From: Flavobacterium sp.
GTDB lineage: Bacteria > Bacteroidota > Bacteroidia > Flavobacteriales > Flavobacteriaceae
Reading direction: 5' to 3'
Assembly (NCBI RefSeq): GCF_020217025.1
Contig: NZ_JAIWOF010000227.1
Coordinates: 1 to 17,100, forward strand
Length of the DNA stretch: 17,100 bases
Shown: piece by piece, positions 1 through 17,100 of the stretch
Layout of the letters: the number at the start of each line of letters is the position of its first letter
Position numbering within the stretch: the first letter of the stretch is position 1
Notes under the pieces: model-generated
The model's input: only the letters and a program-made list of their open reading frames with translations
Database searches by the model: none
What the model was told of the DNA's origin: nothing
Program-made: the position numbers and the translations under genes

Positions 1-91
1 GAAATGGCGCAGTTGTTTAATTTAAAGTTTTGGTTATATTTGTGAAGGCTTGGTGTTGGTTTTTCGCCACATTTTTAAGCCACAGAACGTT
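1..91 (+). repeat. attC-like site of the cassette to the left (partial)
   Basis: This is the right part of a repeat cut by the window start. It has the family landmarks TATATTTG (35-42), GGCTTGGTGTTGG and AAGCCACAGAAC before GTT at 89-91. The next cassette begins with GTTAGCAAAC (89-98), which pairs with 581-590 and not with this site, so the site belongs to an unseen upstream cassette. Confidence 0.75.
12..42 (+). promoter_or_regulatory. Possible Bacteroidota-type promoter inside the attC-like repeat
   Basis: GTTG (12-15), a 19-base spacer and TATATTTG (35-42) resemble the Bacteroidota housekeeping promoter TTTG-N19-21-TAnnTTTG. It points at the cassette 1 gene about 80 bases downstream. 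The -7-like octamer recurs in most repeats of the array, but the -33 element does not, so function is uncertain. Confidence 0.35.
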
Positions 92-120
92 AGCAAACAT
101 TTAAAAAAAGAAAACTTTCA

Positions 121-576
121 ATGAATATTTTGAATAAACTATATCTAATATTCTTTACAAGAAAAATTATTTATTTTAACACTGAAAGTTTTTCGCTATG
201 TTTTCCAATTAACTGGCGTAAATCAATTGGCCCAAAAAAATCATTTATTTTTTTTGAGGAAACAACTAATTATGGTTTTATAATTGAAGAATACTGTTCA
301 CAAAAAGTAACAGCAGATGCAATTCTTGATGTTTATGCTGAAAAGCATTCTGATTGTATCATAAAACCGATTGAAGAAATAATTAATGATAATGTGGTAC
401 TGAAGTGGATTTTTGATTATAAGAATGAAAAAGTTTTAGAATATAAAAGATTAATTATTGGAGATAAAGTTATCTTAGACATTACTTATTCTATTCAAAA
501 TAATTTATCGACTCAAAAAAACTCTGAAGCAATGGAAAAACTTGAAAGTATAATGAATTCAATAAAATTAAAATAA
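121..576 (+). CDS. Cassette 1 hypothetical protein, possible PsbP/MOG1-like fold
   Basis: The predicted protein has 151 residues and no convincing signal peptide, although residues 1-12 are hydrophobic. From about residue 22 the run SFSLCFPINWRKS resembles the opening strand of PsbP/MOG1/DcrB-like domains, where a strand is followed by a P-x-x-W turn. The protein ends with ESIMNSIKLK, like the closing helix of such domains. This is a resemblance by eye, not a family assignment. The ATG lies 32 bases after the GTT box, and the stop codon touches the 15-base arm of the cassette's attC-like site (576-590). It is the only gene of its cassette. Function is unknown; a role in stress or envelope physiology would be a guess. 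The coding region is certain from its length and tight fit between the two cassette ends. Confidence 0.7.
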   Translation: MNILNKLYLIFFTRKIIYFNTESFSLCFPINWRKSIGPKKSFIFFEETTNYGFIIEEYCSQKVTADAILDVYAEKHSDCIIKPIEEIINDNVVLKWIFDYKNEKVLEYKRLIIGDKVILDITYSIQNNLSTQKNSEAMEKLESIMNSIKLK

Positions 577-717
577 AAACGTTTGCTAACAGCGGTTTGC
601 TTCAATGGCTACTTCCGGATTTTCCTACGGAAAATCCGCTACTGAATGGAATGTTTTATTATATTTGTAATGGCTTGGTGTTGGTTCAACGCCACTGAGA
701 GCAAGCCGCAGAACGTT
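576..717 (+). repeat. attC-like site of cassette 1 (type I)
   Basis: The right-hand arm GTTTGCTAAC (581-590) is the exact reverse complement of the cassette start GTTAGCAAAC (89-98). The body contains an inner stem GCGGTTTGC / GCAAGCCGC, a perfect 10-bp hairpin CGGATTTTCC-TAC-GGAAAATCCG (616-638), TATATTTG (660-667) and a second hairpin GGTGTTG / CAACGCC. It ends at GTT (715-717). AAC to GTT is 130 bases. Confidence 0.85.
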
Positions 718-727
718 AGCGGTAATC

Positions 728-1351
728 TTACTTAAGACCAGTCAGAATATTAACTTTTTCATCGGAATCGAAAAGTTTATACATCTCGCATATTGAAGAA
801 TCAAAACTTTCAGAACTGAATTCACCTAATTTTTTAGCATTTTTTACCGCTGTTTCCTGATTATTCTTGATTTTTTTATACAAATCATTCTTAACAAAAT
901 ACTTTTCACTCTTATCATAATCTTTTAAATGTTTCTTTAGTAACTGATTAGCTTCACTACAATCTTTAAAAGGTTTTGCAGTATATTCATAATGAAGCAA
1001 TAACCAATATTCAAGACAAGGATTAGAAACAATTACTTTAACATTCTTTAATCTCGATAAATCTTTATAATATTTTAAAAATTCTTCCTTAGGATTTTTA
1101 CCTTCTTTCTTTTTACTTCTCTCCTCTTCAAGAACTTTATCTAAATCAACAATCCAAATTACTAAATCATAGTCACTTGCTGATTTTTTCACTTCTTTAT
1201 ATAAATCAAAGAGCTTCTTTTTTCTTGGCAATTTTGGTAACAAATCAAGATTAATAGCATTTTCATTTCTTTTCATCATTTGAAAATACCATAATTCACA
1301 TTCTCCATCAACAAAAATAGCTGCTTTCTTTTTCTTACTAATTTTCGCCAT
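728..1351 (-). CDS. RloB-like protein of an ATPase/RloB anti-phage pair (AbiLii-like)
   Basis: About 207 residues from MAKISKKKK. ATG codons 6 and 21 bases upstream (1357, 1372) are also possible starts. Family landmarks of RloB are visible: a basic start, the acidic first motif in FVDGECELWYF, the WIVDLDK acidic motif, and SNPCLEYWLLLHYE, the most characteristic RloB block. The acidic positions suggest a TOPRIM-like metal-binding nuclease site. The start overlaps the end of the upstream ATPase gene (stop at 1338-1340), so translation is probably coupled. RloB partners of AAA ATPases occur in restriction-linked loci and in the lactococcal abortive infection system AbiL. The likely role is therefore the effector half of an anti-phage system; this comes from the family, not from the sequence alone. 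The stop codon overlaps the start arm of cassette 2 (715-729), so the gene fills the cassette exactly. Confidence 0.82.
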   Translation of the reverse strand: MAKISKKKKAAIFVDGECELWYFQMMKRNENAINLDLLPKLPRKKKLFDLYKEVKKSASDYDLVIWIVDLDKVLEEERSKKKEGKNPKEEFLKYYKDLSRLKNVKVIVSNPCLEYWLLLHYEYTAKPFKDCSEANQLLKKHLKDYDKSEKYFVKNDLYKKIKNNQETAVKNAKKLGEFSSESFDSSICEMYKLFDSDEKVNILTGLK

Positions 1352-2666
1352 CTTCATCGTATTTAAAATCAAGAAAATAATCTCCTAATTCAGGTACACC
1401 TCCTAATTTACCAATACTATAAGCATTGTAAACATTACTACTATTTCTTATAGTTTTAGTGTCGAAATCTTCTAATGAATAAATTTCAGTATTACCTTCT
1501 TCTGTTTTATCAGCAAACCAAATACAATCATCTCTAAAAATATCTCTATTTTTTAATATTTCTCTGTTATGAGTAGTAGCGATTAATTGAGATTTGGATG
1601 AATTTACAAGATGCATTAAAATAAAATGGATATACAAATCGGGATGAAGAGAAGATTCTAACTCATCTATTGGCACAATACTATTTTGTCTTACAAGAAT
1701 ATCCAATACACCAGCTAAACCATAAAATCTTTGTGTTCCTTGAGATTGATTTTCAAAAGGTAAATTATAACTCTTATCTCCGAACTTATGGACAAATTCT
1801 AAATTAACAGCAGTAACTTTACCTTTTTCTCTAATAGAAGAAATTTTCTTTCTGTCCTCTTCATTCTTTGTACTAGTTTCCAAAAACTCAAGTAAACCTT
1901 CTGGTATATCTCTTTCCTTTTCTTCAATAATAATATCTTCAATGTTTAAATCTGCTTTTCTCAAAACTTCTAAAACATTTTCTTTACTAATATTACCACC
2001 ATCATTTAAATTTCTAGTAACAAATCCATCTAAATCTGTTCTTGGTGAAATCATTGGTCTTAAAGCACTTTCAAACCAATCAAGAACTTCTCTTAACTCA
2101 ACAATATCAATATTTGTTTTTAGAAAACCTCCAAAAACCGTGTTGTTAGATAATGTATTGCTGACAAGAGTATTAACATAATCTTTATTCAGTTTAACTT
2201 TACTTCCAAAAACAATTTCAGTAAGATTATTATTAACATTTGTAGTTCTTTTAAAAACAGTTGCTTTATTAGGATTAAAAACTAACAATGTTTCTTGGCT
2301 AATAACTTTCTTATTAAATTCAACCCTGTAAGAATATTTTTTTGATTTATGAACGAAATCTATTTCAATAGTTGAGTCTAAATTTTTACTTTCATTATCA
2401 AACAAAAATGGATTAAAATCAAATTTTTCATTTTTTTTCTCAAATGGATCTAATACAATATCACGCAAAAATTCTATTGCATTTAACATTGTGGTTTTTC
2501 CAGACGCATTAGCACCATATAAAAAAATTAATTTTAATAATCTTAATCCCTTTATGGGTTCAATTACATAATAGTTCTCTAAATCGTCATATTTTTTTGC
2601 TTCAAAAGAAATTGTTTGCTTTTCTCTTATCGGACCAAAATTGGTAACTGAAAAACTTATTATCAT
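1338..2666 (-). CDS. AAA (AAA_21/RloA-like) ATPase, partner of RloB (AbiLi-like)
   Basis: 442 residues from the start MIISFSVTNFGPI, chosen because this is the usual N-terminus of this ATPase family; an ATG at 2702 would add 12 basic residues. Walker A is GANASGKTT (about 51-59), a signature-like SQGTQ is at about 308-312, Walker B is IVPIDELE (about 330-337), and the switch histidine is in ATTHNRE (about 366). This is the ABC/OLD-like layout of AAA_21 proteins that sense a trigger and control a toxic partner. It is transcribed against the array together with the overlapping rloB-like gene, so it must have its own promoter in about 2667-2750. It is the largest cassette and the only one in reverse orientation. 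The family match is strong; the phage-defence role is inferred from the pair. Confidence 0.85.
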   Translation of the reverse strand: MIISFSVTNFGPIREKQTISFEAKKYDDLENYYVIEPIKGLRLLKLIFLYGANASGKTTMLNAIEFLRDIVLDPFEKKNEKFDFNPFLFDNESKNLDSTIEIDFVHKSKKYSYRVEFNKKVISQETLLVFNPNKATVFKRTTNVNNNLTEIVFGSKVKLNKDYVNTLVSNTLSNNTVFGGFLKTNIDIVELREVLDWFESALRPMISPRTDLDGFVTRNLNDGGNISKENVLEVLRKADLNIEDIIIEEKERDIPEGLLEFLETSTKNEEDRKKISSIREKGKVTAVNLEFVHKFGDKSYNLPFENQSQGTQRFYGLAGVLDILVRQNSIVPIDELESSLHPDLYIHFILMHLVNSSKSQLIATTHNREILKNRDIFRDDCIWFADKTEEGNTEIYSLEDFDTKTIRNSSNVYNAYSIGKLGGVPELGDYFLDFKYDEDGEN

Positions 2667-2745
2667 CTTTTTTTTTGGTTTTAATTTGCAATTAATACGC
2701 AAATTTAAGCATAAAAATTGAATTTTGGACTATTTTTTAAAATAA

Positions 2746-2885
2746 AAGACTACCGCTAACAGCCGTTTGCACCAATGGCGTGGCTCGGGATTTATTTGGA
2801 AAAGAATACCGCTAAATGAAATGTTATTTCTATATTTGTTATCGTCAGTGTCGAAAAACGCCACTGGCGCAAGCGACAGAACGTT
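2746..2885 (+). repeat. attC-like site of cassette 2 (divergent type)
   Basis: TACCGCTAAC (2751-2760) is the exact reverse complement of the cassette start GTTAGCGGTA (715-724); four further bases (2746-2749) pair across a C/A mismatch. The body lacks the type I hairpin. It keeps AACAGCCGTTTGC, ACCAATGGCG, TATATTTG (2831-2838), GCCACTGG and GCAAGCGACAGAAC before GTT at 2883-2885. AAC to GTT is 128 bases. Confidence 0.82.
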
Positions 2886-2935
2886 GTGCGCTATTTTGTG
2901 AGCTATCTACTAACGAAAACATTTATTTCAAAAAT

Positions 2936-3406
2936 ATGAAAATAAAAGAGCTAAAAAATCTGGTTGATAATTATATCGACGATTATAACGAGTTTTCAAT
3001 AAATAGAGAACTTTTCGACTTTGAGGACGGTCGAAAAAAGTATAATTCAACAATTAGAGACAACGTTCGTAAAAATAGTTTTGGAATCTATGTTTGGGTA
3101 AATCCAAAAAACGATGAAGTTATTTACATCGGTATGGCGGGAAAAATAAAATCGGACGGAACATCTTGCGATCATTCACTTGCGAAACGATTAACAGCAA
3201 CACGAGGAAAAGATAAGGAAACAAAACTCGATATTCTTACAAATGATTACGTAAAAACAATTATGGATTTAAAGGAAATCGAGAAATTAGATTTTTATAT
3301 TTTTTATACAAAAACAGATGAACCACCATCATATGTTGAATCTATTTTGCTTTATAATTACTTCAAACAACAAAAAAGATTACCAATTTTAAATAATTCT
3401 TTTTAA
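2936..3406 (+). CDS. Cassette 3 GIY-YIG domain protein
   Basis: 156 residues. An upstream in-frame ATG at 2816 lies inside the repeat and is rejected; the start at 2936 follows the cassette boundary by about 50 bases. The core reads GIYVWVNPKNDEVIYIG, with GIY at 50-52 and YIG at 64-66, a candidate catalytic arginine at 85 and glutamate 135 in SYVESILLY, then a closing LPILN. This matches the GIY-YIG nuclease fold. Residues 1-45 are charged and unassigned. No separate DNA-binding domain is seen, so it is a stand-alone, small GIY-YIG protein. Whether it cuts DNA in defence, repair or mobility, or is inactive, cannot be told. It is the only gene of its cassette. The fold assignment is good; the function is open. 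Confidence 0.75.
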   Translation: MKIKELKNLVDNYIDDYNEFSINRELFDFEDGRKKYNSTIRDNVRKNSFGIYVWVNPKNDEVIYIGMAGKIKSDGTSCDHSLAKRLTATRGKDKETKLDILTNDYVKTIMDLKEIEKLDFYIFYTKTDEPPSYVESILLYNYFKQQKRLPILNNSF

Positions 3407-3407
3407 T

Positions 3408-3544
3408 AAAACAGCGCACAACAGCGGTTTTGCATGATTGCTGTTTTTGTTGTAAAAGTTCGTTCAGTTTTTCATAACTTCGTTTCGTCCAGCCGAGAGT
3501 ACGTAGTTCCAATTTCCGCAACCAGCGCAAAGCCACAGGACGTT
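3408..3544 (+). repeat. attC-like site of cassette 3 (divergent type)
   Basis: AGCGCACAAC (3413-3422) is the exact reverse complement of GTTGTGCGCT (2883-2892); AAAA before it also pairs with TTTT after the A at position 11. The inner stem GGTTTTGC / GCAAAGCC is kept. The centre differs from the other repeats and has no TATATTTG. The site ends at GTT 3542-3544; AAC to GTT is 125 bases. Confidence 0.8.
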
Positions 3545-3610
3545 GTGCGTAATGTTTGTGCAGATAAGAGATTGAAAGAACTAAACCAAAAATAATTTAC
3601 CAAAAGAAAA

Positions 3611-4045
3611 ATGAAAAAAATACTTATTAAAATCAGTTTATTAACATTATTATCATTAGTTATATCGTGTACAAAAAACGATGATAACAATTCAAATGTG
3701 GATTCAATAATTGGAAAATGGGAATACTCAACTCAATTTGAAAATGACATTCAATTTACACAAAATGATTGTCAACCATCAACTATTGAGTTTTCAAATA
3801 ACGGAAGTAGAACCGACAAATATTATGATCAAAACCTAGCTAATGAATGTGTTTTAGTTGATGATGTAAATCTTACTTGGACAAAAATTAATGATAACAC
3901 TTATCAATTCAATCAGAATGGAGATATTTATACCGAAAACGTCACATTTGAAAACGGAAATAATAAACTTATTTTAGAAAGTTCTGATGATGATGGAAAT
4001 GGGAATGTTATAATTTATAAGTTTGTATATAATCGAATAAATTAA
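3611..4045 (+). CDS. Cassette 4 lipocalin-like lipoprotein
   Basis: 144 residues with a lipoprotein signal peptide. Residues 1-20 are basic then hydrophobic, and the lipobox LVISC puts the lipidated cysteine at 20. The mature start is rich in N, D and S, typical of surface-exposed lipoproteins in Bacteroidota. Then IIGKWEYS begins a lipocalin-like beta-barrel pattern (G-x-W near the start), followed by alternating strands up to YKFVYNRIN. The cargo or ligand is unknown. It is the sole gene of the cassette, which ends a few bases after the stop at the arm TACGCACAAC (4049-4058). The lipoprotein call is firm; the lipocalin-like fold is a by-eye inference from the GKW motif and strand pattern. 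Confidence 0.72.
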   Translation: MKKILIKISLLTLLSLVISCTKNDDNNSNVDSIIGKWEYSTQFENDIQFTQNDCQPSTIEFSNNGSRTDKYYDQNLANECVLVDDVNLTWTKINDNTYQFNQNGDIYTENVTFENGNNKLILESSDDDGNGNVIIYKFVYNRIN

Positions 4046-4185
4046 CACTACGCACAACAGCGGTTTGCTTCAATGGCTACTTCCGGATTTTCCTGCGGAA
4101 AATCCGCTGCTGAATGGAATGTTTTGTTATATTTGTAATGGCTTGGTGTTGGTTCGACGCCACTGAGAGCAAGCCTCATAACGTT
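4044..4185 (+). repeat. attC-like site of cassette 4 (type I)
   Basis: TACGCACAAC (4049-4058) is the exact reverse complement of GTTGTGCGTA (3542-3551). The body is about 95 percent identical to that of cassette 1, with only six differences seen. It has the perfect hairpin CGGATTTTCC-TGC-GGAAAATCCG (4084-4106) and TATATTTG (4128-4135), and ends at GTT 4183-4185. AAC to GTT is 130 bases. Confidence 0.85.
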
Positions 4186-4254
4186 AGCAGTAATGGTAGG
4201 ACGACCCAACCAACAATAAGATTCAACTCAAAAAAAACATTATTTACAAAAAAT

Positions 4255-4869
4255 ATGGCAATTAAACTCACAAACAGCATTGACAAGTTCGGCACAATAG
4301 GACTTTTCTTGACAGCAATATTTTCACCTTGCTGTTTTCCACTTTTTGCATTTGCAGCTTCTGCACTCGGACTTGGAAGTTTTGAGCTTTTTGGTGGGTG
4401 GACAATGTGGATTTTTCAAGCAATGGTTTTAATTTCTGTTGGCGGGCTTTACATTTCGTATCGCAGACACCGTTGTATGTATCCTTTAATAGTTGCCATT
4501 CCAAGCGGAATTTTGATTTTTTACGCTTATCATTTTAACGACAGCGAATACTGGACGTATTTTCTTTACGTTGGTATGTTCGGACTTCTAATAGCGACAA
4601 TTTGGAATTATAAACGAAACAAAATGAACGGAAATTGCAACACTTGCACAACATATAATGGCAAGACAGTTGAAACACAATCAACATTGACCTGTCCAAA
4701 CTGCGGACATAAGAAAACTGAAATTATGCCGACAGACGCTTGTCTATATTTCTATGAGTGCGAAAATTGTAAAACACGACTGAAACCATTGCAAGGCGAC
4801 TGTTGTGTTTATTGTAGTTATGGGACGGTTAAATGTCCACCAATTCAAGCAGGTGAAAATTGCTGCTAA
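4255..4869 (+). CDS. MerC-type membrane protein fused to a GDCCVxC domain
   Basis: 204 residues from MAIKLTNSIDK. An in-frame ATG at 4114 sits inside the repeat and is rejected. The N-terminal half has four hydrophobic segments (about 14-40, 45-68, 75-93, 98-118). A Cys-Cys pair at 26-27 in FSPCCFPLF matches MerC-like mercury transport proteins. The C-terminal half is cysteine-rich: CPNCG, then YECENC, then GDCCVYCSYGTVKCPP (from about 181), the hallmark of GDCCVxC-domain proteins, some of which are selenoproteins in other bacteria. Here the motif positions are cysteines. The fusion suggests metal uptake or sensing in the membrane coupled to a thiol-rich soluble domain. It is followed after 11 bases by an HMA-CDF transporter gene, so the cassette is a two-gene metal (possibly mercury) operon. 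Family calls are strong; the metal is inferred. Confidence 0.85.
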   Translation: MAIKLTNSIDKFGTIGLFLTAIFSPCCFPLFAFAASALGLGSFELFGGWTMWIFQAMVLISVGGLYISYRRHRCMYPLIVAIPSGILIFYAYHFNDSEYWTYFLYVGMFGLLIATIWNYKRNKMNGNCNTCTTYNGKTVETQSTLTCPNCGHKKTEIMPTDACLYFYECENCKTRLKPLQGDCCVYCSYGTVKCPPIQAGENCC

Positions 4870-4880
4870 TAATAAAGCCA

Positions 4881-5678
4881 ATGCAAAAAACGACATTTAA
4901 AATATCAAAAATGGATTGCCCATCCGAAGAACAAATGATACGGATGAAACTTGCCGACTTGACAAACATCAACTCGTTAGACTTTGATATTGCAAACAGA
5001 CAACTGACCGTTTTTCACACAGACAACCACGACAAAATTTTTCAGCGACTTGACAATTTAAAATTTGACACTTCACTTATTGACAGCGTTTCGGCAGACA
5101 ATTATTCTGTTACAACCGACAACACCGACCGAGAAAGAAAATTGCTTTGGCAAGTTTTAGCTATCAACTTTTTCTTTTTTGCACTTGAACTTACGACAGG
5201 TTTCGTTTCAAACTCAATGGGACTTGTTGCCGACAGTTTAGATATGCTTGCCGACAGTATTGTTTACGGACTTGCACTTTTCGCTGTTGGTGGGACAATG
5301 ACACGAAAAAAGAACATTGCAAAATCAGCAGGTTATTTTCAGTTGACACTTGCCATTTTTGGTTTCATTGAAGTAATCAGACGATTTATTGGAACTGAAA
5401 CAGTTCCTACATTTCAGACAATCATAATTATTTCAATTCTTGCACTTATTGGCAACGGACTTTGTTTGTATTTACTGCAAAAAAGCAAAAGCAGAGAAGC
5501 ACATATGCAAGCGAGTATGATTTTTACATCTAATGACGTAGTTGTAAATTTAGGTGTAATTGTCGCAGGCGGACTTGTTTACTTGACAAACTCAAAATAT
5601 CCCGACCTTATCGTTGGGACAATAGTATTTTTCATCGTTGGACAAGGAGCATTTAAAATCTTGAAACTATCGAAATGA
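4881..5678 (+). CDS. Cation diffusion facilitator-type transporter with N-terminal HMA-like domain
   Basis: 265 residues from MQKTTFKISKMDCPSEEQ; an ATG seven codons upstream overlaps the previous gene and is less likely. Residues 1-70 look like a heavy-metal-associated domain, but the usual CxxC is reduced to one cysteine (C13 in MDCPSEE). From about 93 there are four to six membrane segments. MGLVADSLDMLADSIVYG carries the paired aspartates expected at the CDF metal site, and a second set is in MQASMIFTSNDVVVNLG. This indicates a proton-coupled metal exporter in the inner membrane. It shares a cassette and probably a transcript with the MerC-GDCCVxC gene. It lacks the long C-terminal cytoplasmic domain of many CDF proteins. 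The transporter call is strong; the substrate is unknown. Confidence 0.83.
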   Translation: MQKTTFKISKMDCPSEEQMIRMKLADLTNINSLDFDIANRQLTVFHTDNHDKIFQRLDNLKFDTSLIDSVSADNYSVTTDNTDRERKLLWQVLAINFFFFALELTTGFVSNSMGLVADSLDMLADSIVYGLALFAVGGTMTRKKNIAKSAGYFQLTLAIFGFIEVIRRFIGTETVPTFQTIIIISILALIGNGLCLYLLQKSKSREAHMQASMIFTSNDVVVNLGVIVAGGLVYLTNSKYPDLIVGTIVFFIVGQGAFKILKLSK

Positions 5679-5692
5679 CGGACGAAAATAGA

Positions 5693-5828
5693 ACCACTAC
5701 TGCTAACAGCGGTTTGGCAAAAGGCGGGGTTTCGTGCTTCGTAGAAACATTTGTGCAAGGTTCAACATTTGTGCTTCGTATGAACTTTAGTGCTAAAAAT
5801 CCCACCCTTCGCCAAGCCGCAAAACGTT
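5693..5828 (+). repeat. attC-like site of cassette 5 (type with internal direct repeats)
   Basis: TACTGCTAAC (5698-5707) is the exact reverse complement of GTTAGCAGTA (4183-4192). The inner stem GCGGTTTGGC / GCCAAGCCGC is ten paired bases with one T-G pair. The centre has two direct repeats: GTGCTTCGTA at 5734 and 5771, and ACATTTGTGC at 5747 and 5765. It ends at GTT 5826-5828; AAC to GTT is 124 bases. No TATATTTG is present. Confidence 0.82.
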
Positions 5829-5851
5829 GTAGCACATTTTGAGAAAACTCT

Positions 5852-6409: not shown

Positions 6410-6415
6410 TAATAA

Positions 6416-6557
6416 AAAACGTGCTACAACAGCGGTTTGCTTCAATGGCTACTTCCGGATTTTCCTACGGAAAATCCGCTGCTGAATGGAATGTTTTATT
6501 ATATTTGTAATGGCTTGGTGTTGGTGCAACGCCACTGAGAGCAAGCCGCAGAACGTT
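6416..6557 (+). repeat. attC-like site of cassette 6 (type I)
   Basis: GTGCTACAAC (6421-6430) is the exact reverse complement of GTTGTAGCAC (5826-5835). The body is nearly identical to the cassette 1 repeat, with the perfect hairpin at 6456-6478 and TATATTTG at 6500-6507. It ends at GTT 6555-6557; AAC to GTT is 130 bases. Confidence 0.85.
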
Positions 6558-6585
6558 GTAAGCAAGCTTAAAAAACGAACTACGA

Positions 6586-7050: not shown

Positions 7051-7053
7051 AAA

Positions 7054-7195
7054 AAGCCTGCTTACAACAGCGGTTTGCTTCAATGATTGCTTCCGGATTT
7101 TCCTACGAAAAAATCCACTGCTGAATGGAATGTTTTGTTATATTTGTGAAGGCTTGGTGTTGCATTTTTGCCAGATTTTTAAACTACGGAAAGTA
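7054..7195 (+). repeat. attC-like site of cassette 7 (type I, decaying right half)
   Basis: TGCTTACAAC (7059-7068) is the exact reverse complement of GTTGTAAGCA (6555-6564), and the adjacent AAGC also pairs. The left half is type I, but the hairpin's right arm carries changes (GAAAAAATCCA). The right half has drifted: AAACTACGGAAA replaces AAGCCGCAGAAC, and the GTT box is GTA (7193-7195). TATATTTG is at 7139-7146. Confidence 0.78.
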
Positions 7196-7205
7196 AGCAA
7201 CCATT

Positions 7206-8204
7206 ATGAAACAAATTTTACTTATAATTCTATTACTTTATTCTTTCATCTCGAAATCTCAAAATATTTTTAAGTACGAAAAGGAAGTAAACAATATCGA
7301 AAATTATGATTCTCAAGAAATTGATTTTCAAAATCTGAAGGAAAATATAAAACTTTCAGGGACATTAATTAAACCAAAATCTGATTTTGATAAAATTGTT
7401 ATAATCGTTCCAGGTAGTGGAAAAGACACCAGACATTCTCATTATATATTGTCTGAAGAACTTCTCAAAAATAATATTGCAGTATATCGATTTGATGAAC
7501 GAGGTATAGGAAAATCAGAAGGAAATTATTCTGAATTAGCTACCGATTTATCAAAAGATTTAAACTATGCTTTTAAAAATTTACAAAAAACATATAATAC
7601 CAAAAAAATAGGGATAATTGGACATAGTATCGGAGGAATTGCTACTCTAAAAATTATTGAAGAAAATAGTAATCCGAATTTTATCATTTTAATAGAAACA
7701 CCTATTATAAAAAATGGTGCGTTTATTATTAATCAATTTAAAATGAACTACGAAAATAGTATTCCCGAAATTATGCGAGAAGGTAAGACTAAAAATGAAA
7801 TAGTGACTTTCATGGAGGGATACTTAGCTGTTATAAAAAATAGTAATTCTAATTCTTTAAAAAAAGAAGTAAAAAAGTATATTCAGGATAAAGGATTCAA
7901 TAAACGTTTTATTGCTTTGTTACATGATGCTTTTTTAATCGAAATGGCTTCAACTAATATTGAAGCGACTTTAAAAAACACTTCTATTAAAACATTGTTT
8001 GTTACAGGTACAAAAGATTTAATCATTAATCATAAAGATGAAATTAATTTAATTGAATCTTTTAAAAACCCTAATATTGAATATAAAATTTTTGAAAGTT
8101 TAAATCACTATTTAACGGATAGAAATGGAACTGTAGGTTCTTCATTATACCAAATGGACCAAGAACCACTTTCAGATATAAAAAACTGGATATTAAAACA
8201 ATAA
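7206..8204 (+). CDS. Cassette 8 secreted alpha/beta hydrolase
   Basis: 332 residues. A signal peptide covers about 1-18, ending FISKSQN. The alpha/beta-hydrolase core is complete: oxyanion region VPGSGKD (68-74), FDERGIGKSEG (96-106), nucleophile elbow GHSIGG with Ser141, an acid in VTGTKD (Asp271) and His301 in SLNHYLTD. This fits periplasmic alpha/beta hydrolases of the dienelactone-hydrolase or BAAT-like type, with unknown ester, peptide or amide substrate. The start codon overlaps the 15-base start arm of its cassette (7193-7207). The cassette's own boundaries are partly degenerate at the left side. The catalytic triad is inferred from motif order; the protein family is firm. Confidence 0.8.
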   Translation: MKQILLIILLLYSFISKSQNIFKYEKEVNNIENYDSQEIDFQNLKENIKLSGTLIKPKSDFDKIVIIVPGSGKDTRHSHYILSEELLKNNIAVYRFDERGIGKSEGNYSELATDLSKDLNYAFKNLQKTYNTKKIGIIGHSIGGIATLKIIEENSNPNFIILIETPIIKNGAFIINQFKMNYENSIPEIMREGKTKNEIVTFMEGYLAVIKNSNSNSLKKEVKKYIQDKGFNKRFIALLHDAFLIEMASTNIEATLKNTSIKTLFVTGTKDLIINHKDEINLIESFKNPNIEYKIFESLNHYLTDRNGTVGSSLYQMDQEPLSDIKNWILKQ

Positions 8205-8337
8205 CTGTTACTAACAATGGTTTTACGAAATTTTGGCTTTAGGATTTAATGGAAAGATCTTTTTGTATATTTGGCTTAGTAGGAATGGAATGGTTCGGAG
8301 CAATATAAATCCAAACTTCGCAAAGCCTTGATACGTT
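8201..8337 (+). repeat. attC-like site of cassette 8 (divergent type)
   Basis: The arm ATAA-C-TGTTACTAAC (8201-8215) pairs with GTAAGCAACC-A-TTAT (7193-7207) at 11 of the 14 flanking positions; the A/C position is kept. The body keeps AATGGTTTTACG / CGCAAAGCC, TATATTTG (8266-8273) and ends at GTT 8335-8337. AAC to GTT is 125 bases. Confidence 0.7.
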
Positions 8338-8409
8338 GGCGGTAAGTTTACCAAACCAACGTGCAGACAAACAGAACCGATTAACAAACGACAAATTTCA
8401 CAAAACAAA

Positions 8410-9522: not shown

Positions 9523-9627
9523 AACCTATCGGTTTAGTAATATGGTAGCTGAAGTGGTTCTATGAAACTTTTGTGTTAAAAAACCTCCACATTACAAAGC
9601 GTGGAACCATTAAACCTAATTACCGTT
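9522..9627 (+). repeat. Decayed attC-like site ending array 1
   Basis: Cassette 9 starts with GTTGGCGGTA-A-GTTT (8335-8349), which predicts AAAC-C-TACCGCCAAC before its own repeat. Seen at 9522-9530 is AAACCTATC: AAAC, C and TA match, then about nine bases including AAC are missing, and CGGTTTAG, the usual inner stem, follows. Inverted pieces GGTTTA (9531-9536) / TAAACC (9611-9616) and ATGG / CCAT remain. CGTT at 9624-9627 may be the old right box, inside the last codons of the neighbouring hydrolase gene. The call is inferred; a plain terminator hairpin is the alternative. Confidence 0.45.
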
Positions 9628-10411: not shown

Positions 10412-10460
10412 TTTTTGTCAAATGTACTGTTTTTAAAACAACTACATTGTTGAACAAATT

Positions 10461-11264: not shown

Positions 11265-11267
11265 AAT

Positions 11268-12080
11268 TTACCCTAAAATGGATTGCATTTCTTGTTGCAA
11301 CTTCAACGCTTCTTCCCTAGCCTTTGCTGCGAAATCCATTCCGTTTGAAGCGTAAATAATCCCTCTTGATGAATTGATTAACAAGCCAACATTAGCATTC
11401 ATTCCGTATTTGCAAACCTCAACCAAACTTCCGCCTTGAGCGCCAACTCCTGGAACTAATAAGAAACTATCAGGAACAATTTTTCGGATTTCAGTGAAAT
11501 ACTCCGCTTTGGTTGCACCAACTACATACATCAAATTATGCGCGTTTTTCCAAGATTTTGAAGTTTCTAAAACTACTTTGTACAATTCTTTTCCTTCCAC
11601 ATTTTGCGTTTGGAAATCGAAAGCGCCTTCATTTGAAGTTAACGCCAACATAATCGTGTGCTTGTCTTCAAAAGCTAAGAAAGGCTCTACCGAATCTTTT
11701 CCCATGTAAGGTGCCACTGTTACCGAATCAAAATCTAAATCGTTGAAAAAAGCTCTGGCATACATAGACGAAGTATTGCCAATATCACCACGTTTAGCAT
11801 CCGCAATAGTGAAGATTTCAGGATATTTCTCATTGATGTAATTAATGGTTTTTTCTAGCGATTGCCAACCTTTGATTCCGTAAGCTTCGTAAAAAGCAGT
11901 ATTTGGTTTGTACGAAACACATAAATCGTGAGTCGCATCGATAATGGCTTTATTGAATTCGAAAATAGGATCTTCGGTTTGTAGTAAATGCTCGGGAATT
12001 TTATTCAAATCGACATCCAAACCAATGCAAAGAAATGATTTTTTAGTTCGGATTTGGGTAATTAGTTGTTCAGTAGTCAT
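11268..12080 (-). CDS. pyrF: Orotidine 5'-phosphate decarboxylase
   Basis: 270 residues from [16 protein letters not shown]; an ATG seven codons upstream is possible but adds an atypical MRLNNNT. The protein catalyses the last step of de novo UMP synthesis (OMP to UMP) in the cytoplasm. Visible: [10 protein letters not shown] with the substrate-binding aspartates, KPN near 58-60, and the catalytic [11 protein letters not shown] (D94, K96, D99). The length fits the longer, type 2 (about 270 residue) OMP decarboxylases. It heads a small minus-strand group with the metal receptor and hydrolase, and lies downstream of a terminator following prfA. A 12-base palindrome CGCAAATTTGCG (12097-12108) precedes it. 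The identification is secure. Confidence 0.95.
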
Positions 12081-12096
12081 TGTGTTGTTGTTTAAC

Positions 12097-12108
12097 CGCA
12101 AATTTGCG
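12097..12108. promoter_or_regulatory. Palindrome upstream of pyrF
   Basis: CGCAAATTTGCG is a perfect 12-base palindrome 17 bases upstream of the pyrF start. AATTTG within it resembles a weak -7 element on the minus strand, but no -33 match is seen. It could be an operator or chance. Confidence 0.25.
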
Positions 12109-12130
12109 AAATATTTTTGATTTTGGATAT

Positions 12131-12156
12131 AAAAAAAGCCTCAATAAATGAGGCTT
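12131..12156 (-). terminator. Rho-independent terminator after prfA
   Basis: Read on the minus strand, stem AAGCCTCA, loop TTTAT, stem TGAGGCTT, then a run of T. It sits directly after the prfA stop (12162) and before the pyrF leader. Confidence 0.85.
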
Positions 12157-12161
12157 ATATT

Positions 12162-13235
12162 TTAGAAAACTTCGCTTTCTTTTAGTTTTTCGGTGTTGGC
12201 TACCAATTGTAATTCTTCAATCATTTTGTGAAGATTTCCATTCATGAAACCATCTAAATCGAAAATACTTAAACCAATTCTATGATCGGTAATTCTACCT
12301 TGTGCATAGTTATAGGTACGAATTTTAGCCGAACGGTCACCCGAACTTACCTGAGAATTACGTTTTTTCGCATCTTCTTCTTGTTTTTTGGCCAATTCCA
12401 TTTCATACAAACGCGAACGTAAAACCGTTAACGCTTTGTCTTTGTTTTTATGTTGCGATTTCTCATCCTGACATTGTGCTACCAAACCTGTTGGAATGTG
12501 CGTCATGCGAACCGCTGATTTCGTTGTATTTACCGATTGCCCACCAGGACCAGACGAACAGAAAAAGTCGATACGAACGTCGTTCATGTCGATTTGTACG
12601 TCAAATTCTTCTGCTTCTGGCAACACCATTACTGTTGCTGCTGAAGTGTGCACACGACCTTGTGTTTCCGTTTGTGGCACACGTTGTACACGATGTACTC
12701 CTGCTTCATATTTTAAAGTTCCGTACACATCTTCTCCAGTTACTTCAAAGATTATCTCTTTAAAACCACCAGAAGTTCCTTCACTTACATCTACTACAGA
12801 TGTTCTCCATCCTTTTGAATCACAATATTTAGTGTACATACGGTACAAATCTCCAGCAAAGATAGAAGCTTCATCTCCACCCGTACCTGCGCGGATTTCC
12901 ACCATAACGTTTTTCGCATCTTCTGGGTCTTTTGGAATCAACATATATTTGATTTCGTCTTCTAACTGAGGTAAACGTTCTTTAGCTTCGTCCAATTGCA
13001 TTTTAGCCATTTCTAACATTTCGGCATCCGAACCATCCGCAATAATCTCGTTAGCTTCTTTAATATTTCCGTCAAGATTAATGTATTCTTCACGTTTATC
13101 TACTAAAGCTTTAAGGTCTTTGTATTCTTTATTTAATTGTACATAACGCTTTTGATCGGCAATTACATCAGGCTGAATAATCAAATCTGATACTTCGTCA
13201 AAACGTTGTTTTACATATTGTAATCTATCTAACAT
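12162..13235 (-). CDS. prfA: Peptide chain release factor 1
   Basis: 357 residues, the normal length. RF1 ends translation at UAA and UAG in the ribosomal A site. Stop-codon recognition motif PxT is present as PQT (187-189) in [14 protein letters not shown], which separates it from RF2. The peptidyl-tRNA hydrolysis motif GGQ is at 231-233 in [17 protein letters not shown]. The N-terminal coiled helical domain (1-100) and [16 protein letters not shown] are also standard. A promoter is readable 22 bases upstream and a terminator directly downstream, so it is probably transcribed alone. The identification is secure. Confidence 0.97.
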
Positions 13236-13257
13236 AGCTGTTATTTATTTTGGAGTG

Positions 13258-13288
13258 CAAAGTTACAATTTTAGTTGAAAGTTTAAAA
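13258..13288 (-). promoter_or_regulatory. prfA promoter (Bacteroidota type)
   Basis: On the minus strand TTTT (13288-13285), 19 bases, then TAACTTTG (13265-13258), which fits TTTG-N19-TAnnTTTG with one change in the -33 box. It lies 22 bases before the prfA start. Confidence 0.6.
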
Positions 13289-13348
13289 ATTAAAATGTTT
13301 AAAAGTTTTAAAACTGAAAATCAACTTCTTAACTATTTTATTTAAAAT

Positions 13349-13421
13349 AAATCTAAATAAACTTTGTGAATTCATTTTTGCTTATTATTTTTGCGGTGTT
13401 ATTTTAATTAAATCTAAATAA
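13349..13421 (+). promoter_or_regulatory. Paired 12-base direct repeat flanking the receptor promoter, possible operator
   Basis: AAATCTAAATAA occurs at 13349-13360 and 13410-13421, either side of the promoter, the second copy ending just before the start codon. The placement suits a repressor, and the downstream genes are of siderophore type, so an iron-dependent regulator (DtxR/IdeR or Fur family) is a reasonable guess. No experimentally known box is claimed. Confidence 0.4.
13363..13393 (+). promoter_or_regulatory. Promoter of the TonB receptor operon
   Basis: TTTG (13363-13366), a 19-base spacer and TATTTTTG (13386-13393) fully match the Bacteroidota promoter TTTG-N19-TAnnTTTG. Start codon is 30 bases downstream. 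Confidence 0.75.
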
Positions 13422-13422
13422 G

Positions 13423-15651
13423 ATGTATAAAAACATTTTCAAATCTATAGTACTACTGTCTTCTTTTCAGGCAGTGGCCCAACAAACTCCAAATGATGTT
13501 AGCGAAAACTATTTTACAGAAAACGATACTGTGAAAACGCTAAACGAAGTAGTCATTAACGGAAAAAACAATCCTTCTAAGTCTTCAGTTAACAGAGCTG
13601 GAATCAAAGAAAAAGATTTACCTCAAGCCATTCAGGTTATTGGAACAGAAATCATCCAACAACAACAATCCATTCGTTTGAGTGATGTGGTTAAAAATGC
13701 CAACGGTGTTTATGTAGGTTCGGCTCGTGGTGGCGCTCAAGAATCATTTTGGTCAAGAGGTTATGACATGACATCTAACAACATGTTTAAAAATGGTTTC
13801 CGCTTTAATGGCGGTTCTATTCCTGAAGTTTCTTCGTTAGAAAAAGTAGAAATCTTAAAAGGAAGTGCAGCACTTTTATATGGAAATGTGGCGCCTGGAG
13901 GAATTATGAACATGGTAACCAAATCGCCTAACTTCAGAACTGGTGGCGAATTCACCATGCAAGCTGGAAGTTATAGTTTCTACAAACCTTCGGCAGATGT
14001 ATATGGTGCTTTTAACAATTCGATTGCGTATCGTTTTAATGGTTCATATGAAAACTCGGAGAGCTTTAGAGATTATGTTACCAGAGAACGTTATTATGTA
14101 AATCCTTCCCTACTTTTTAAAGTGAGTGACAAAACTGAAATTACACTACAAGCAGATTATTTAAGTGATGACTGGACACCAGATTTTGGAACTGGTTCTA
14201 TTGGAAAAGAAATTGCAGATGTACCAAGAAACGCTTATTTAGGCGCAAAATGGTCAAATGGAAACACCAAACAAGCAACCGCTTCGATATTAGTAAACCA
14301 TGAATTCAATAAAAATTGGAAACTGAATTTTAATTCTTCTTTCCAAGATTACGACAGAGAATCTATCGGAACAGAACGTATTCAACCAAATCCAGACGGT
14401 AGTGGCGATTGGAAACGTCCTTACGGGAGAAATAAAGCGGTAGAACAAATTTTTGCCAACCAAATTAGTTTACAAGGCAACTTTAAAACAGGTAAAATCA
14501 AACACCAATTATTTACGGGTATCGATACCGAAATTTCGTATGCCGATGCTTATACGTTTAGATTTTTTAATCCTAATGTGTTAGATGTGAATGGAAATCC
14601 GGTAACTGAAACAACTTACGATACGGTAAATATTTTTGATCCATCGTCTTATGCAGCTTCAAATGAAGGACCAATTTTACCTTCTGAAGTAACAAGAATC
14701 GTAAAAACTCAAACTACACGTTTTGGTGTTTATGCACAAGATTTAATTTCGTTTTCTGACAAATTTAAAGCGTTATTAGGTTTACGTTATTCGTACCAAG
14801 AAGCAAAACCAGAAACGTACAACATTGCGGCAAATACTGTTACAGAAGAAAAAATTCGTAACGATAGAGCTTTCTCGCCTAAAGTAGGATTGATTTATCA
14901 ACCTACAAAGAGCATTACTTTATTCTCTAGTTATTCCAACTCGTTTACACCAAATACTGGAATAGATATTAATAACGAAGCTTTAAAACCATCAATCATT
15001 GATCAAATTGAAGCCGGAATTAAAAACGAATTCTGGAAAGGAAAATTAACTACAAACGTTACTTTATACCAAATTGTAAACAGCAATTTAGTTCAAACGG
15101 CAGAATTTGACGCAAACGGAAACATCAATACAAATCCAAATCTTAAAGCGTTAAGCGGAGAAACAACCAGTAAAGGAATTGAATTAGACTTAAACTACAA
15201 ACCAATTGATGGTTTAAACATTATATCAGGATATAGTTATAACGACATGCGTTATACCAAAACCACTGGTGCCACAGGAAGTTTTATTGAAGGCGATCGT
15301 TTGGTAAGAACACCTCAACATACAGCTAACTTAAGTTTCTTTTATACGGTACAAACTGGAGTTCTTAAAAATGTATCGGTTGGAGCTATTGGAAACTACA
15401 TTGGTGACAGACTTGGCGGTTGGAACAATCAAGTAAATCCTGCTTATCCAAACGGAATTTGGGATAGAGAAATTCCAGTTGATGGCTACACAACAATTGA
15501 TGTATCGTTAGGTTACAATTGGAAACAATTTTCATTACTTTGCAAATTATCTAATATTACCAACGAGTTGAATTATACTTTACACGAAAATTACAGTGTA
15601 AACCCTATTGCCCCAAGACAAATTTTAACTTCGTTACGATACAAATTTTAA
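13423..15651 (+). CDS. TonB-dependent siderophore receptor
   Basis: 742 residues. A signal peptide (1-19) ends in AVAQQ. TLNEVVINGKN (about 39-49) is a TonB-box-like segment. The plug domain follows with LPQAIQVIGTEIIQQQQSIRLSDVVKN, GGAQESFWSRGYD and VEILKGSAALLYGNVAPGGIMNMVTK. The long beta-barrel ends in the classic aromatic C-terminus LRYKF. GYD and the single plug without an N-terminal carboxypeptidase-like repeat fit the FhuE/FpvA/ferrichrome-type siderophore class rather than SusC. It imports ferric siderophores across the outer membrane using TonB energy. It is followed 20 bases later by a PepSY-type gene, forming an iron operon with its own promoter and flanking repeats. The class is strong; the siderophore is unknown. 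Confidence 0.93.
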   Translation: MYKNIFKSIVLLSSFQAVAQQTPNDVSENYFTENDTVKTLNEVVINGKNNPSKSSVNRAGIKEKDLPQAIQVIGTEIIQQQQSIRLSDVVKNANGVYVGSARGGAQESFWSRGYDMTSNNMFKNGFRFNGGSIPEVSSLEKVEILKGSAALLYGNVAPGGIMNMVTKSPNFRTGGEFTMQAGSYSFYKPSADVYGAFNNSIAYRFNGSYENSESFRDYVTRERYYVNPSLLFKVSDKTEITLQADYLSDDWTPDFGTGSIGKEIADVPRNAYLGAKWSNGNTKQATASILVNHEFNKNWKLNFNSSFQDYDRESIGTERIQPNPDGSGDWKRPYGRNKAVEQIFANQISLQGNFKTGKIKHQLFTGIDTEISYADAYTFRFFNPNVLDVNGNPVTETTYDTVNIFDPSSYAASNEGPILPSEVTRIVKTQTTRFGVYAQDLISFSDKFKALLGLRYSYQEAKPETYNIAANTVTEEKIRNDRAFSPKVGLIYQPTKSITLFSSYSNSFTPNTGIDINNEALKPSIIDQIEAGIKNEFWKGKLTTNVTLYQIVNSNLVQTAEFDANGNINTNPNLKALSGETTSKGIELDLNYKPIDGLNIISGYSYNDMRYTKTTGATGSFIEGDRLVRTPQHTANLSFFYTVQTGVLKNVSVGAIGNYIGDRLGGWNNQVNPAYPNGIWDREIPVDGYTTIDVSLGYNWKQFSLLCKLSNITNELNYTLHENYSVNPIAPRQILTSLRYKF

Positions 15652-15671
15652 GAATTCAATTAAAACAAAAC

Positions 15672-16220
15672 ATGAAACAAAAATTAATTAGAGACATTCA
15701 CCGCGATTTTGGTTACTTCTACGTAGGATTAATTATTTCGTTTGCCTTTTCAGGAATTTTAATGAACCACAGAGAACATTGGCATCCTGAAAAATACACC
15801 ATCGAAACCAAAAACATCAAAGTACAATTGCCAGAAGAAAGCCAAATTACAGAAGAATTTGCTGAAAACTTAGGAAAACAATTGGGCATCGATGATAAAA
15901 TGCGTCGCCACAACGTAAAGAAAGGTACGTTTAAAATTTCGTTTGAAAAGCACGATGTAGAAATCGACATGAAAACGGGTAAAGGTGAAATTGTTGCCTT
16001 CAACAAAACACCAATTATCAGCCAAACAATGAAGTTACACAAAACCACTTCGAATTGGTGGATTTACTACTCTGATATTTTTGGAATCTCCTTAATATTA
16101 ATTGCCATCACGGGAACTTTAATGGTAACCCACGGCAAAAACACCTTTAAAAATAGAGGCTGGAAACTAGCCGTAGCCGGAATTATTTTTCCCATCTTAG
16201 TTTTAGTTATTTTGAGTTAA
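15672..16220 (+). CDS. PepSY-associated transmembrane protein
   Basis: 182 residues. TM1 is about 13-32 (FYVGLIISFAFSGILMNH), followed by HREHWHP. A soluble domain (40-118) with IDMKTGKGEIVAFNKTPI is PepSY-like, then LHKTTSNWWIYYSDIFG and two C-terminal membrane segments (about 133-152, 161-181). Small PepSY_TM proteins next to TonB siderophore receptors are thought to act in ferric siderophore reduction or handling at the inner membrane. The histidines at 34, 37 and 39, and near 124, could bind haem or metal. It is cotranscribed with the receptor, and a hairpin terminator follows. It is half the length of full PepSY_TM reductases, so it is probably a partner, not the whole enzyme. Confidence 0.82.
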   Translation: MKQKLIRDIHRDFGYFYVGLIISFAFSGILMNHREHWHPEKYTIETKNIKVQLPEESQITEEFAENLGKQLGIDDKMRRHNVKKGTFKISFEKHDVEIDMKTGKGEIVAFNKTPIISQTMKLHKTTSNWWIYYSDIFGISLILIAITGTLMVTHGKNTFKNRGWKLAVAGIIFPILVLVILS

Positions 16221-16226
16221 TAAACG

Positions 16227-16255
16227 AAAAGGTTCACGAAAGTGAGCCTTTTTTG
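16227..16255 (+). terminator. Rho-independent terminator of the TonB/PepSY operon
   Basis: Stem AAAAGGTTCAC (16227-16237), loop GAAA, stem GTGAGCCTTTT (16242-16252) with one T-G pair, then T-rich. It lies seven bases after the stop codon and closes the core region. Confidence 0.85.
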
Positions 16256-16285
16256 TTTTAGAAATTGTAAATATTTTATTATATT

Positions 16286-16388
16286 TGATTTCGTTAAAAA
16301 AATAAGCGAAATAAAAACTTGCCAAACTTTCGCCAATCTTGCCAATATGGTATGATACTAGTTCGAAAGTTTCGTATATAAACGAGTT
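16286..16388 (+). other. Insertion point of array 2: attI-like or secondary site (candidate)
   Basis: No gene is supported between 16221 and 16415. The first cassette of array 2 begins at GTT 16386, but the preceding 100 bases lack the AAGCC..GAAC right end and the CGGTTT inner stem seen before every other cassette. Instead there is a perfect 9-base inverted repeat AAACTTTCG (16324-16332) / CGAAAGTTT (16364-16372), three GCCAA copies within 16321-16346, and a smaller ATTTCG / CGAAAT hairpin. This could be an attI-like site, a secondary genomic target, or a very decayed attC. Confidence 0.35.
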
Positions 16389-16415
16389 ACCAGTAATTTT
16401 ACCCAAAAATCGTAA

Positions 16416-16997
16416 ATGGACAATTTAATAATTTATAGTTTAGGTTTCTTAATATTACTTCCGATACTTATTGGATATTATTTTGACTACAAAAACGACC
16501 CTAAAGAATTCAAATTATCATTAAAATCTTTGTGGAATAAACGCTCTTCAAAAGCTTTACTATTTCTAATAATTTATTTCAGTTTTGTTAAAATTTATGA
16601 ACATACTATCCCATTAAATAAAAACAAAGGAATTGAATTTAATTCGACAAGAGAGAAAATTGGTATTCCACTAATTGGAAAAAATTGGGAAATAAATGAT
16701 TCAAGATATAGAACAATATGGTCAAACGTTGATTCAACTGATAGACATTTTAGAAAGACAATTGAATACGGAATATTGAATGCGAAAACTGAAACTGATT
16801 ATTATCAAAACAAAAAACGAGAGGGAACATTTGCGTGGTCAGTTTATAATTATGGAAACAACTCTTTTGAATACTATTTAGAAAAACCTAACGAGAAATT
16901 AGTTTCTGTAAATGAAAAAGGGAACCTGAAATACGAAAACCCAACAATTGAAAAAAAAGTTAATAAAACTGAATTTGAAAAATACATAACAGAATAA
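16416..16997 (+). CDS. Cassette 10 membrane protein of unknown function
   Basis: 193 residues. Two membrane segments, about 3-21 (LIIYSLGFLILLPILIGYY) and 48-62 (ALLFLIIYFSFVKIY), are joined by a basic loop. The rest (65-193) is a polar domain with GIPLIGKNWEINDSRYRTIW and TEFEKYITE, and no recognised motif. It starts 30 bases after the cassette boundary, and the stop almost touches the end arm. AT-rich codon use matches the other cassettes and not the adjacent core operon, in line with separate acquisition. Function is not recognised. Confidence 0.7.
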   Translation: MDNLIIYSLGFLILLPILIGYYFDYKNDPKEFKLSLKSLWNKRSSKALLFLIIYFSFVKIYEHTIPLNKNKGIEFNSTREKIGIPLIGKNWEINDSRYRTIWSNVDSTDRHFRKTIEYGILNAKTETDYYQNKKREGTFAWSVYNYGNNSFEYYLEKPNEKLVSVNEKGNLKYENPTIEKKVNKTEFEKYITE

Positions 16998-17100
16998 AAA
17001 ACTACTGGTAACAGCGGTTTGCTTCAATGGCTACTTCCGGATTTTCCTACGGAAAATCCGCTGCTGAATGGAATGTTTTGTTATATTTGTAATGGCTTGG
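16998..17100 (+). repeat. attC-like site of cassette 10 (type I, cut by window end)
   Basis: Arm TACTGGTAAC (17003-17012), inner stem GCGGTTTGC, perfect hairpin CGGATTTTCC-TAC-GGAAAATCCG (17038-17060) and TATATTTG (17082-17089). It is nearly identical to the repeats of cassettes 1, 4 and 6 although more than 10 kb away. Confidence 0.85.

Follow-up and report, generated by a model that had tools for sequence, protein, structure and literature searches.

The window analysed here, 17,100 nucleotides (nt) of Flavobacterium sp. DNA, corresponds to one contig (NZ_JAIWOF010000227.1, here C166) of a 2.5-Mb genome assembly in 238 contigs (RefSeq GCF_020217025.1). It carries gene cassettes in tandem from position 89 to ~9500, followed by housekeeping genes and a lone cassette at 16386. 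At each junction, AAC is followed by a hairpin core of 118–124 bases and then by GTT. The ends of each cassette form two arms that pair with one another over 15 positions, interrupted at position 11, where the start has A and the end has C. This arm rule, and the integrase genes found beside arrays that obey it, are the subject of this work.

All arms and recombination-site cores described here lie on the plus strand. The window opens in the right part of the core of a preceding cassette (1–88), which is cut by the window start and terminates in AAGCCACAGAAC immediately 5' of the GTT at 89. Cassette 1 has its start arm at 89–103 (A at 99), pairing with the end arm at 576–590 (C at 580), and its core (L''–loop–L') at 591–714, a 124-nt junction. 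The corresponding start arm, end arm and core lie at 715–729 (A at 725), 2746–2760 (C at 2750) and 2761–2882 in cassette 2; 2883–2897 (A at 2893), 3408–3422 (C at 3412) and 3423–3541 in cassette 3; 3542–3556 (A at 3552), 4044–4058 (C at 4048) and 4059–4182 in cassette 4; 4183–4197 (A at 4193), 5693–5707 (C at 5697) and 5708–5825 in cassette 5; 5826–5840 (A at 5836), 6416–6430 (C at 6420) and 6431–6554 in cassette 6; and 6555–6569 (A at 6565), 7054–7068 (C at 7058) and 7069–7192 in cassette 7, the core of which is decaying, judging from its sequence. Two decayed cassettes follow, one with arms at 7193–7207 (A at 7203) and 8201–8215 (C at 8205) that pair in 9/11 positions, the other with a start arm at 8335–8349 (A at 8345). 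Cassette 8 stands outside the main array, with arms at 16386–16400 (A at 16396) and 16998–17012 (C at 17002), and a core (17013–17100) cut by the contig end.

In all eight intact cassettes the arms pair without fault over positions 1–10, an A in the start arm faces a C in the end arm at position 11, and pairing resumes over positions 12–15 (three of the four in cassette 1), exactly as the initial annotation had described; its statement that the arm sequence varies from cassette to cassette also holds, within single arrays. Over positions 4–10 and 12–15 each start matches its own end at 87/88 positions in total, a value reached by the true assignment alone among the 40,320 possible assignments of ends to starts (next best, 81), and the 56 single mispairings of these arms average 5.2/11 matches with a maximum of 8, which rules out chance pairing. 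Both decayed cassettes had been said to keep A and C. This stands for the one at 7193, which retains the pair together with all four pairs at positions 12–15, and only 5/7 at positions 4–10; for the one at 8335, only the start A could be verified, with no matching end arm found. Elsewhere in the genome, seven further cassettes obey the rule straight, four on contig C156 and three on C95 (one of the latter with 3/4 outer pairs), and two others on C95 fit it only via a bulge or a mismatch at position 10. The contigs bearing array pieces (C95, C156 and C166) end in cores, and these pieces may be one long array broken in assembly.

The spread of the rule was surveyed by an arm-blind method, in which junctions were found by the stability of the inner L stem alone and the arms were left unread beyond AAC and GTT, thus avoiding circularity. 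The survey covered 79 loci, namely the window, 25 loci of two genera, and L050–L102, some of which belong to other recombinases. From 313 candidates, 163 cassettes (32 loci) with at least 5/6 pairs at positions 4–9 were retained, the other 150 being dropped as false or decayed. The full rule is kept in 154/163, 129 straight and 25 with a one-base bulge, and a start A faces an end C at position 11, straight or shifted by such a bulge, in 160/163. Among the nine exceptions, six keep A/C with 2/4 outer pairs, and one comes from a locus outside the integrase family (L092). In the 146 straight cases, positions 12, 13, 14 and 15 pair in 97, 94, 92 and 84%, respectively, compared with 31–46% in 1,656 within-array mispairings, which again rules out chance pairing. 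Pairing stops after position 15, with position 16 paired in 10% and positions 17–22 in 11–24%. Positions 16–22 are mostly A facing A; A-rich flanks on either side can explain the low pairing, and active termination of the stem is not claimed.

Two variants recur within the rule. Position 10 is A facing A in 32/129 straight cases, 27 of these before G or C, and the bulge (25/154) consists of one base before position 11, most often as CA facing TCG. At other positions of the rule arms wobbles occupy just 6/1,419 cells, which rules out a general tolerance of wobbles as the cause of position 11. The rule is found beside integrases of Flavobacterium, Arundinibacter, Aquiflexum, Winogradskyella, Algibacter, Alkalitalea and Carboxylicivirga, and also of a Spirochaetota (L079) and a Firmicutes (L070) metagenome-assembled genome. 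It is general and not a local accident, occurring in other genomes of the genus, in other Bacteroidota, and at one Spirochaetota and one Firmicutes locus. Neighbourhoods of a shorter type of integrase contain rule-obeying cassettes in 14 of the 18 fetched, with two of the remaining four having too little sequence.

Control arrays were sought beside ordinary integron integrases (IntI), which are defined by the I2 helix, or patch domain. A first search for classical sites in L103–L129 gave no output, its filter probably being too strict, and controls were therefore drawn from I2-bearing loci of the same phylum. Such IntI exceed the cut-off in 105/395 genomes of the phylum, and none does so in the genome of the window. 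A Diaphorobacter plasmid locus, retrieved as a candidate control, was left out. Nineteen of 20 stretches beside I2-bearing IntI genes were used, one being only 2 kb, and the same arm-blind method reduced 111 candidates to 69 cassettes in 10 loci. None of the 69 obeys the rule, and one has A/C at position 11. Pairing in the 64 straight control cassettes fades past position ~11 (89% at position 10, 72% at 11 and 45% at 12), so ~10–12 paired bases are common to both systems, which is not true of the fixed pair or of the four outer pairs. The emphasis of the initial annotation on pairing well past a 7-bp R box is thus justified as to the fact and not as to its novelty: PMC2727003 reports 9–11 consecutive self-pairing bases for most ordinary integron cassettes, and the controls are similar. 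Long R-arm pairing was accordingly rejected as a novelty in itself. What is specific to these arrays is the fixed A/C at position 11 together with the pairs at 12–15.

The same pair recurs in the inner L box, where the 15th core base after AAC is A, with C opposite, in 187/207 family junctions compared with 1/85 controls. Given a four-base spacer, this base is the counterpart, in the sequences, of position 11 of an R-like arm. An attI, the integrase-proximal site, was also identified, a rule-obeying first cassette lying 31–320 nt past the stop codon in 30/117 examined recombinase open reading frames, many of which are outside the family or at contig ends (L050, L079 and L179 were not counted because of ties). 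The commonest bases ahead of the first cassette are TGCGnATATAnAnnA|GTT, and the left arm of attI, which is double-stranded, has the matching A in 23/30 loci. In addition, base 11 is A in 41/44 starts without a recognised partner, at least four of which, identical rows of L182, may not be real starts. Taken together, the A/C of the L box, the A of attI and these starts suggest that A at position 11 is a feature of every integrase arm, and C opposite it one of folded arms.

A T-G wobble in the folded bottom strand, and an A-C mismatch in the top strand, had been anticipated at position 11. In line with this, folding both strands of rebuilt circular sites with DNA parameters predicts the whole site to be more stable as the bottom strand in 151/163 cases, by a mean of −4.4 kcal/mol. 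For the R stem by itself, the bottom strand is predicted to fold better in 159/163 cassettes versus 47/69 controls, and an in silico swap of C to T in 72 fully paired arms makes this strand difference vanish. Arms also pair far better with each other than with those of an array neighbour (mean −13.5 versus −5.5 kcal/mol; better in 161/163), so a complete site would form only in a circle or when the ends of a cassette meet.

In the genome of the window, an integrase gene lies on C156 (3268–5076, minus strand; 602 codons with the chosen start), with a rule-obeying cassette 44 bp after its stop codon in the same direction. The encoded protein joins a tyrosine-recombinase domain to an N-terminal part of ~300 residues. 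It scores 209.6 bits against the NCBIfam integron-integrase profile TIGR02249 (cut-off 265), split into two stretches that leave out the profile's middle, and four other rule-positive integrases score 182–209 bits in two or more stretches, whereas three control IntI reach 403–463 bits in a single stretch. The best stretch ends at profile position 172–181 in all five integrases, and the second starts at 241 in that from the window's genome. In the alignment, 42 columns, which include the I2 region, are filled in at least 80% of IntI and at most 10% of the family; I2 is thus lacking from the family. A quick tree of 74 rows places 20 IntI (12 profile-supported, and 8 assigned by us that group with them) on one side of a branch with a Shimodaira–Hasegawa-like approximate likelihood ratio support of 100, and all 36 family rows outside it (one, L180, being without array evidence), and a single clade for the family is not rejected by the approximately unbiased test (p = 0.651). 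That the enzyme is not a standard IntI, and that the L box holds the same A/C pair, had both gone unnoticed in the initial annotation.

Near-full-length relatives of this integrase occur in 12/150 genomes of the genus, its own included, and 77/150 sampled genomes match the integrase profile at E ≤ 1e-60; a family-level draw gave matches at E ≤ 1e-110 in 3/397 genomes, these being its own and two of another genus. One locus (L182, genome G138) has five tyrosine-recombinase genes of 287–288 codons within 20 kb, at five places between 1807 and 16254, with near-identical matches.

An AlphaFold model of a long-type integrase has three beta-beta-alpha-beta-beta-alpha units ahead of the recombinase (whole-model mean predicted local distance difference test, pLDDT, 69.9; predicted template modelling score 0.33; ten-residue blocks in the units mostly 76–90), and short-type integrases of ~350 residues have one such module. 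As the latter have the same arrays, a 300-residue N-terminal extension was rejected as the cause of the rule. A profile of the module matches 35/37 rule-positive loci, 0/10 IntI-clade rows and 0/25 other recombinases; 18 of the 37 loci were not used in building it, and 16 of these match, some being close relatives of those used. At L182, which does not match, another recombinase gene had been picked, and the integrase of the same genome (L148) has the module. The module weakly resembles the HARP domain of SMARCAL1: that of L079 matches Pfam HARP (PF07443) at 29.0–29.4 bits (gathering cut-off 25), and its best match by sequence among solved structures is SMARCAL1 HARP (4O66; E 0.016). The same structure heads the Foldseek rows for the module's own model (4o66_A; pLDDT of the model 72.2; probability 0.94). 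With the whole integrase model, VIA-align matches fall on the catalytic part. The importance of HARP domains to SMARCAL1 and UvsW in reversing forks is described in PMC4666394. The module may be HARP-like, and may have a role in the reading of position 11.

From the sequence comparisons, cassettes appear to move as units cut at GTT. At L161 a 1-kb cassette occurs twice, identical from C|GTT to C|GTT with both arms included, between differing neighbours, and a 98.8% identical cassette is found in two genomes with both arms carried along. Homologous cassettes are also informative on the evolution of the arms. Copies that are 92% identical have the same C/T change at position 12 in both arms, and two remotely homologous pairs differ at four and five arm positions, every time in both arms; a third such pair, with a bulged and a straight arm, is not comparable. 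Together with the rarity of wobbles outside position 11, this hints that a correcting process acts besides selection on the arms.

The unit borders, the pairing of the arms, the A/C in both boxes, the linkage to an integrase, the absence of I2 and the shared N-terminal module can all be read from the sequences directly. We consider it likely that they reflect a system of single-strand recombination resembling that of integrons, with position 11 marking both strand and arm. A cassette would be the mobile unit, starting at GTT and ending with the C that precedes the following GTT. In a circle or single strand, its end arm, core and start arm would fold into one bottom-strand hairpin, with a 15-position R stem on the outside and an L stem on the inside, each made up of ten positions, the special position 11 and about four further pairs. 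A dimer of the integrase would bind both stems, cut at GTT/AAC and join the site either to attI, a short way 3' of the integrase gene, or to a second site. With A at position 11 on the strand that leads away from the cut and C facing it, the bottom strand would have T-G and the top strand A-C in both arms. This pair would favour folding of the bottom strand, the wobble being predicted to mark that strand. The integrase, aided by its N-terminal HARP-like module, would then read position 11 as a sign that the arm is properly folded, a role that falls to the I2 helix and extrahelical bases in ordinary integrons. Use of the sites as single strands is probable, as is some reading of position 11; with rather less assurance, we lean towards a second instance of integron-type single-strand recombination that dispenses with I2, in which a XerA-like recombinase fused to HARP-like modules would read folded sites through the T-G at position 11 in both arms.

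Several observations weigh against this proposal. Classical control sites favour the bottom strand too (58/69; mean −1.8 kcal/mol), and their arms likewise pair better with each other than with neighbours (68/69), so these traits are not unique to the family; wobbles are also rare in classical arms (6/483 cells). Taken by itself, the L stem is more stable as the bottom strand in no more than 140/207 cases. The arm-blind method is strict, recovering just 2/8 window cassettes, and four integrase loci (L168, L176, L181 and L187) are without a recognisable array. With regard to the module, a rule-positive locus (L054) has an integrase that truly begins at the recombinase, and either the module is not strictly needed or this locus relies on another enzyme. 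The resemblance to HARP is also thin: Pfam HARP is matched at E ≤ 1 in just 2/22 modules, six places in the ranking of a 22-module profile go to unrelated chains ahead of 4O66 (seventh, E 0.36), the E of the top Foldseek row is 0.037, and 4O66 is absent from the 50 VIA-align rows.

Other explanations account for parts of these data. The A at position 11 could be a base-specific protein contact on duplex DNA, with C merely preventing a perfect long palindrome and the strand being chosen elsewhere, for example through asymmetry of the spacer or through bulges. The A in the double-stranded left arm of attI, its near-invariance in starts even without a recognised partner, and the stem spacer of the window cores, asymmetric by eye with one versus five bases, would all be consistent with such a contact. 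However, a contact to A alone needs no C opposite, yet C is near-constant in both R and L boxes, and G or A, which would break the palindrome equally well, is almost never seen in its place; this explanation is possible but unlikely. The pairing could also stem from templated correction, in which an arm is copied from its partner upon folding in replication and position 11 merely escapes. This would fit the scarcity of wobble intermediates in rule and classical arms alike, and the arm changes seen in both arms of one cassette copy (C/T at position 12) and of 2/3 remote homologous pairs. Correction should, however, erase the A/C pair as well, yet this is kept in 160/163, so selection on position 11 is still needed. 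This account is quite unlikely; correction may act together with the proposed single-strand system.

An ordinary integron with a divergent IntI, in which the rule is just a local site family, would account for the tandem cassettes, the GTT/AAC borders, the hairpin cores and an attI by the integrase, all of which are integron-like; arms with 9–11 bp of self-pairing are known there (PMC2727003), and a recombinase survey (PMC8138268) notes incomplete conservation of the integron-specific insertion within its "integron-like" subgroup, so relatives without it are not unheard of. Nevertheless, five family integrases score only 182–210 bits, below 265 and in two or more stretches, the family is without the I2 insertion and outside the IntI clade, and the rule is found in none of the 69 IntI cassettes, making this explanation very improbable. 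It is scarcely credible that a transposase reads the arms, in double-stranded form and with no folding, as terminal inverted repeats that bound small transposon-like units. Every unit does contain an inverted repeat, but this varies between cassettes of one array, the end arm lies ~120 bp inside a unit bordered by C|GTT, 0/10 scanned window cassette proteins match a transposase, and a tyrosine recombinase gene lies directly upstream of the arrays.

Further features of the window and of the cores concern cassette content and setting. Cassette 2 carries a reverse-oriented pair of genes (728–2702, minus strand) for an RloB-like protein and an AAA ATPase, with AbiLii and AbiLi as best PADLOC matches, making it a possible phage-defence cassette. 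Cassette 5 is a metal-handling cassette, with two genes (4255–5678), one MerC-like and one for a cation-efflux protein with a heavy-metal domain. The lone cassette (16386–17012) lies behind a housekeeping gene, and the 15 bases directly 5' of it, TTCGTATATAAACGA, resemble an attI left arm, which suggests insertion at a secondary site; in a comparison with empty sites, the nearest match (genome G012) aligns only to window position 16257, too short a match to set the insertion border. Rfam gave no match to the window at the gathering threshold. Among 207 family cores, 41 have TAnnTTTG on the top strand (e.g. window 660–667), whereas mononucleotide shuffles give 10.6 and the bottom strand 5. This is the Bacteroidetes-type −7 promoter motif, and cassettes may carry promoters within the recombination site.

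PMC7790495 attributes the gain of single-strand recombination by ordinary integron integrases to the I2 helix, which is said there to occur in no other protein. If the hairpins described here are recombined, I2 would be one of two solutions, the other module being carried by a separate, I2-less group of recombinases, and the fixed T-G pair would offer a one-base handle on the mechanism of strand choice. The system, common in Flavobacterium and found across Bacteroidota, may have escaped notice through the selection of integrases by an additional domain, as done in at least one survey (PMC2426708). This would fit the single complete integron, that of Salinibacter ruber, named in Bacteroidetes proper by IntegronFinder 2.0 (PMC9024848), despite 77/150 genomes of the genus matching the integrase profile. 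Among the matches listed from the open-access integron and HARP literature, preprints excluded, no title or opening of an abstract points to such arrays or to the position-11 rule.

The arrays share with integrons their tandem GTT (R') / AAC (R'') units with an imperfect hairpin site, its core with L''/L' and R''/R', the pairing of a cassette's own arms, the greater predicted stability of the folded bottom strand, and an integrase gene and attI beside the array. They differ in an integrase without I2 and with an N-terminal HARP-like module, in an R stem of 15 positions with a near-invariant A/C at position 11 that is repeated in the L stem, and in the hairpin spacer of the window cores, the asymmetry of which was judged by eye. 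In known integrons intI is divergent from the array, whereas here the integrase gene points to the array, with attI past the 3' end of the gene. Xer recombinases (XerA, XerC and XerD) act on double-stranded dif-like sites and are not known to have cassette arrays; the N-terminal module was not found in the 25 other recombinases tested. Like the HARP domains of SMARCAL1 and T4 UvsW, the module is a small beta-beta-alpha-beta-beta-alpha unit with a G..W......W signature, but it is fused to a recombinase and not a helicase, is present in one to three copies, and in most members is only weakly similar. As an array on a contig without an integrase gene, the window resembles clusters of attC sites lacking an integron integrase (CALIN elements), although the same genome has an integrase beside another array piece on C156 and, as contigs are fragments, the two may be one locus. 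The defining domain of IntI having been tested for and found absent, these arrays are, on their sequences, not members of the IntI-defined family and represent a distinct integron-like system that, as far as its features tell, works like an integron.

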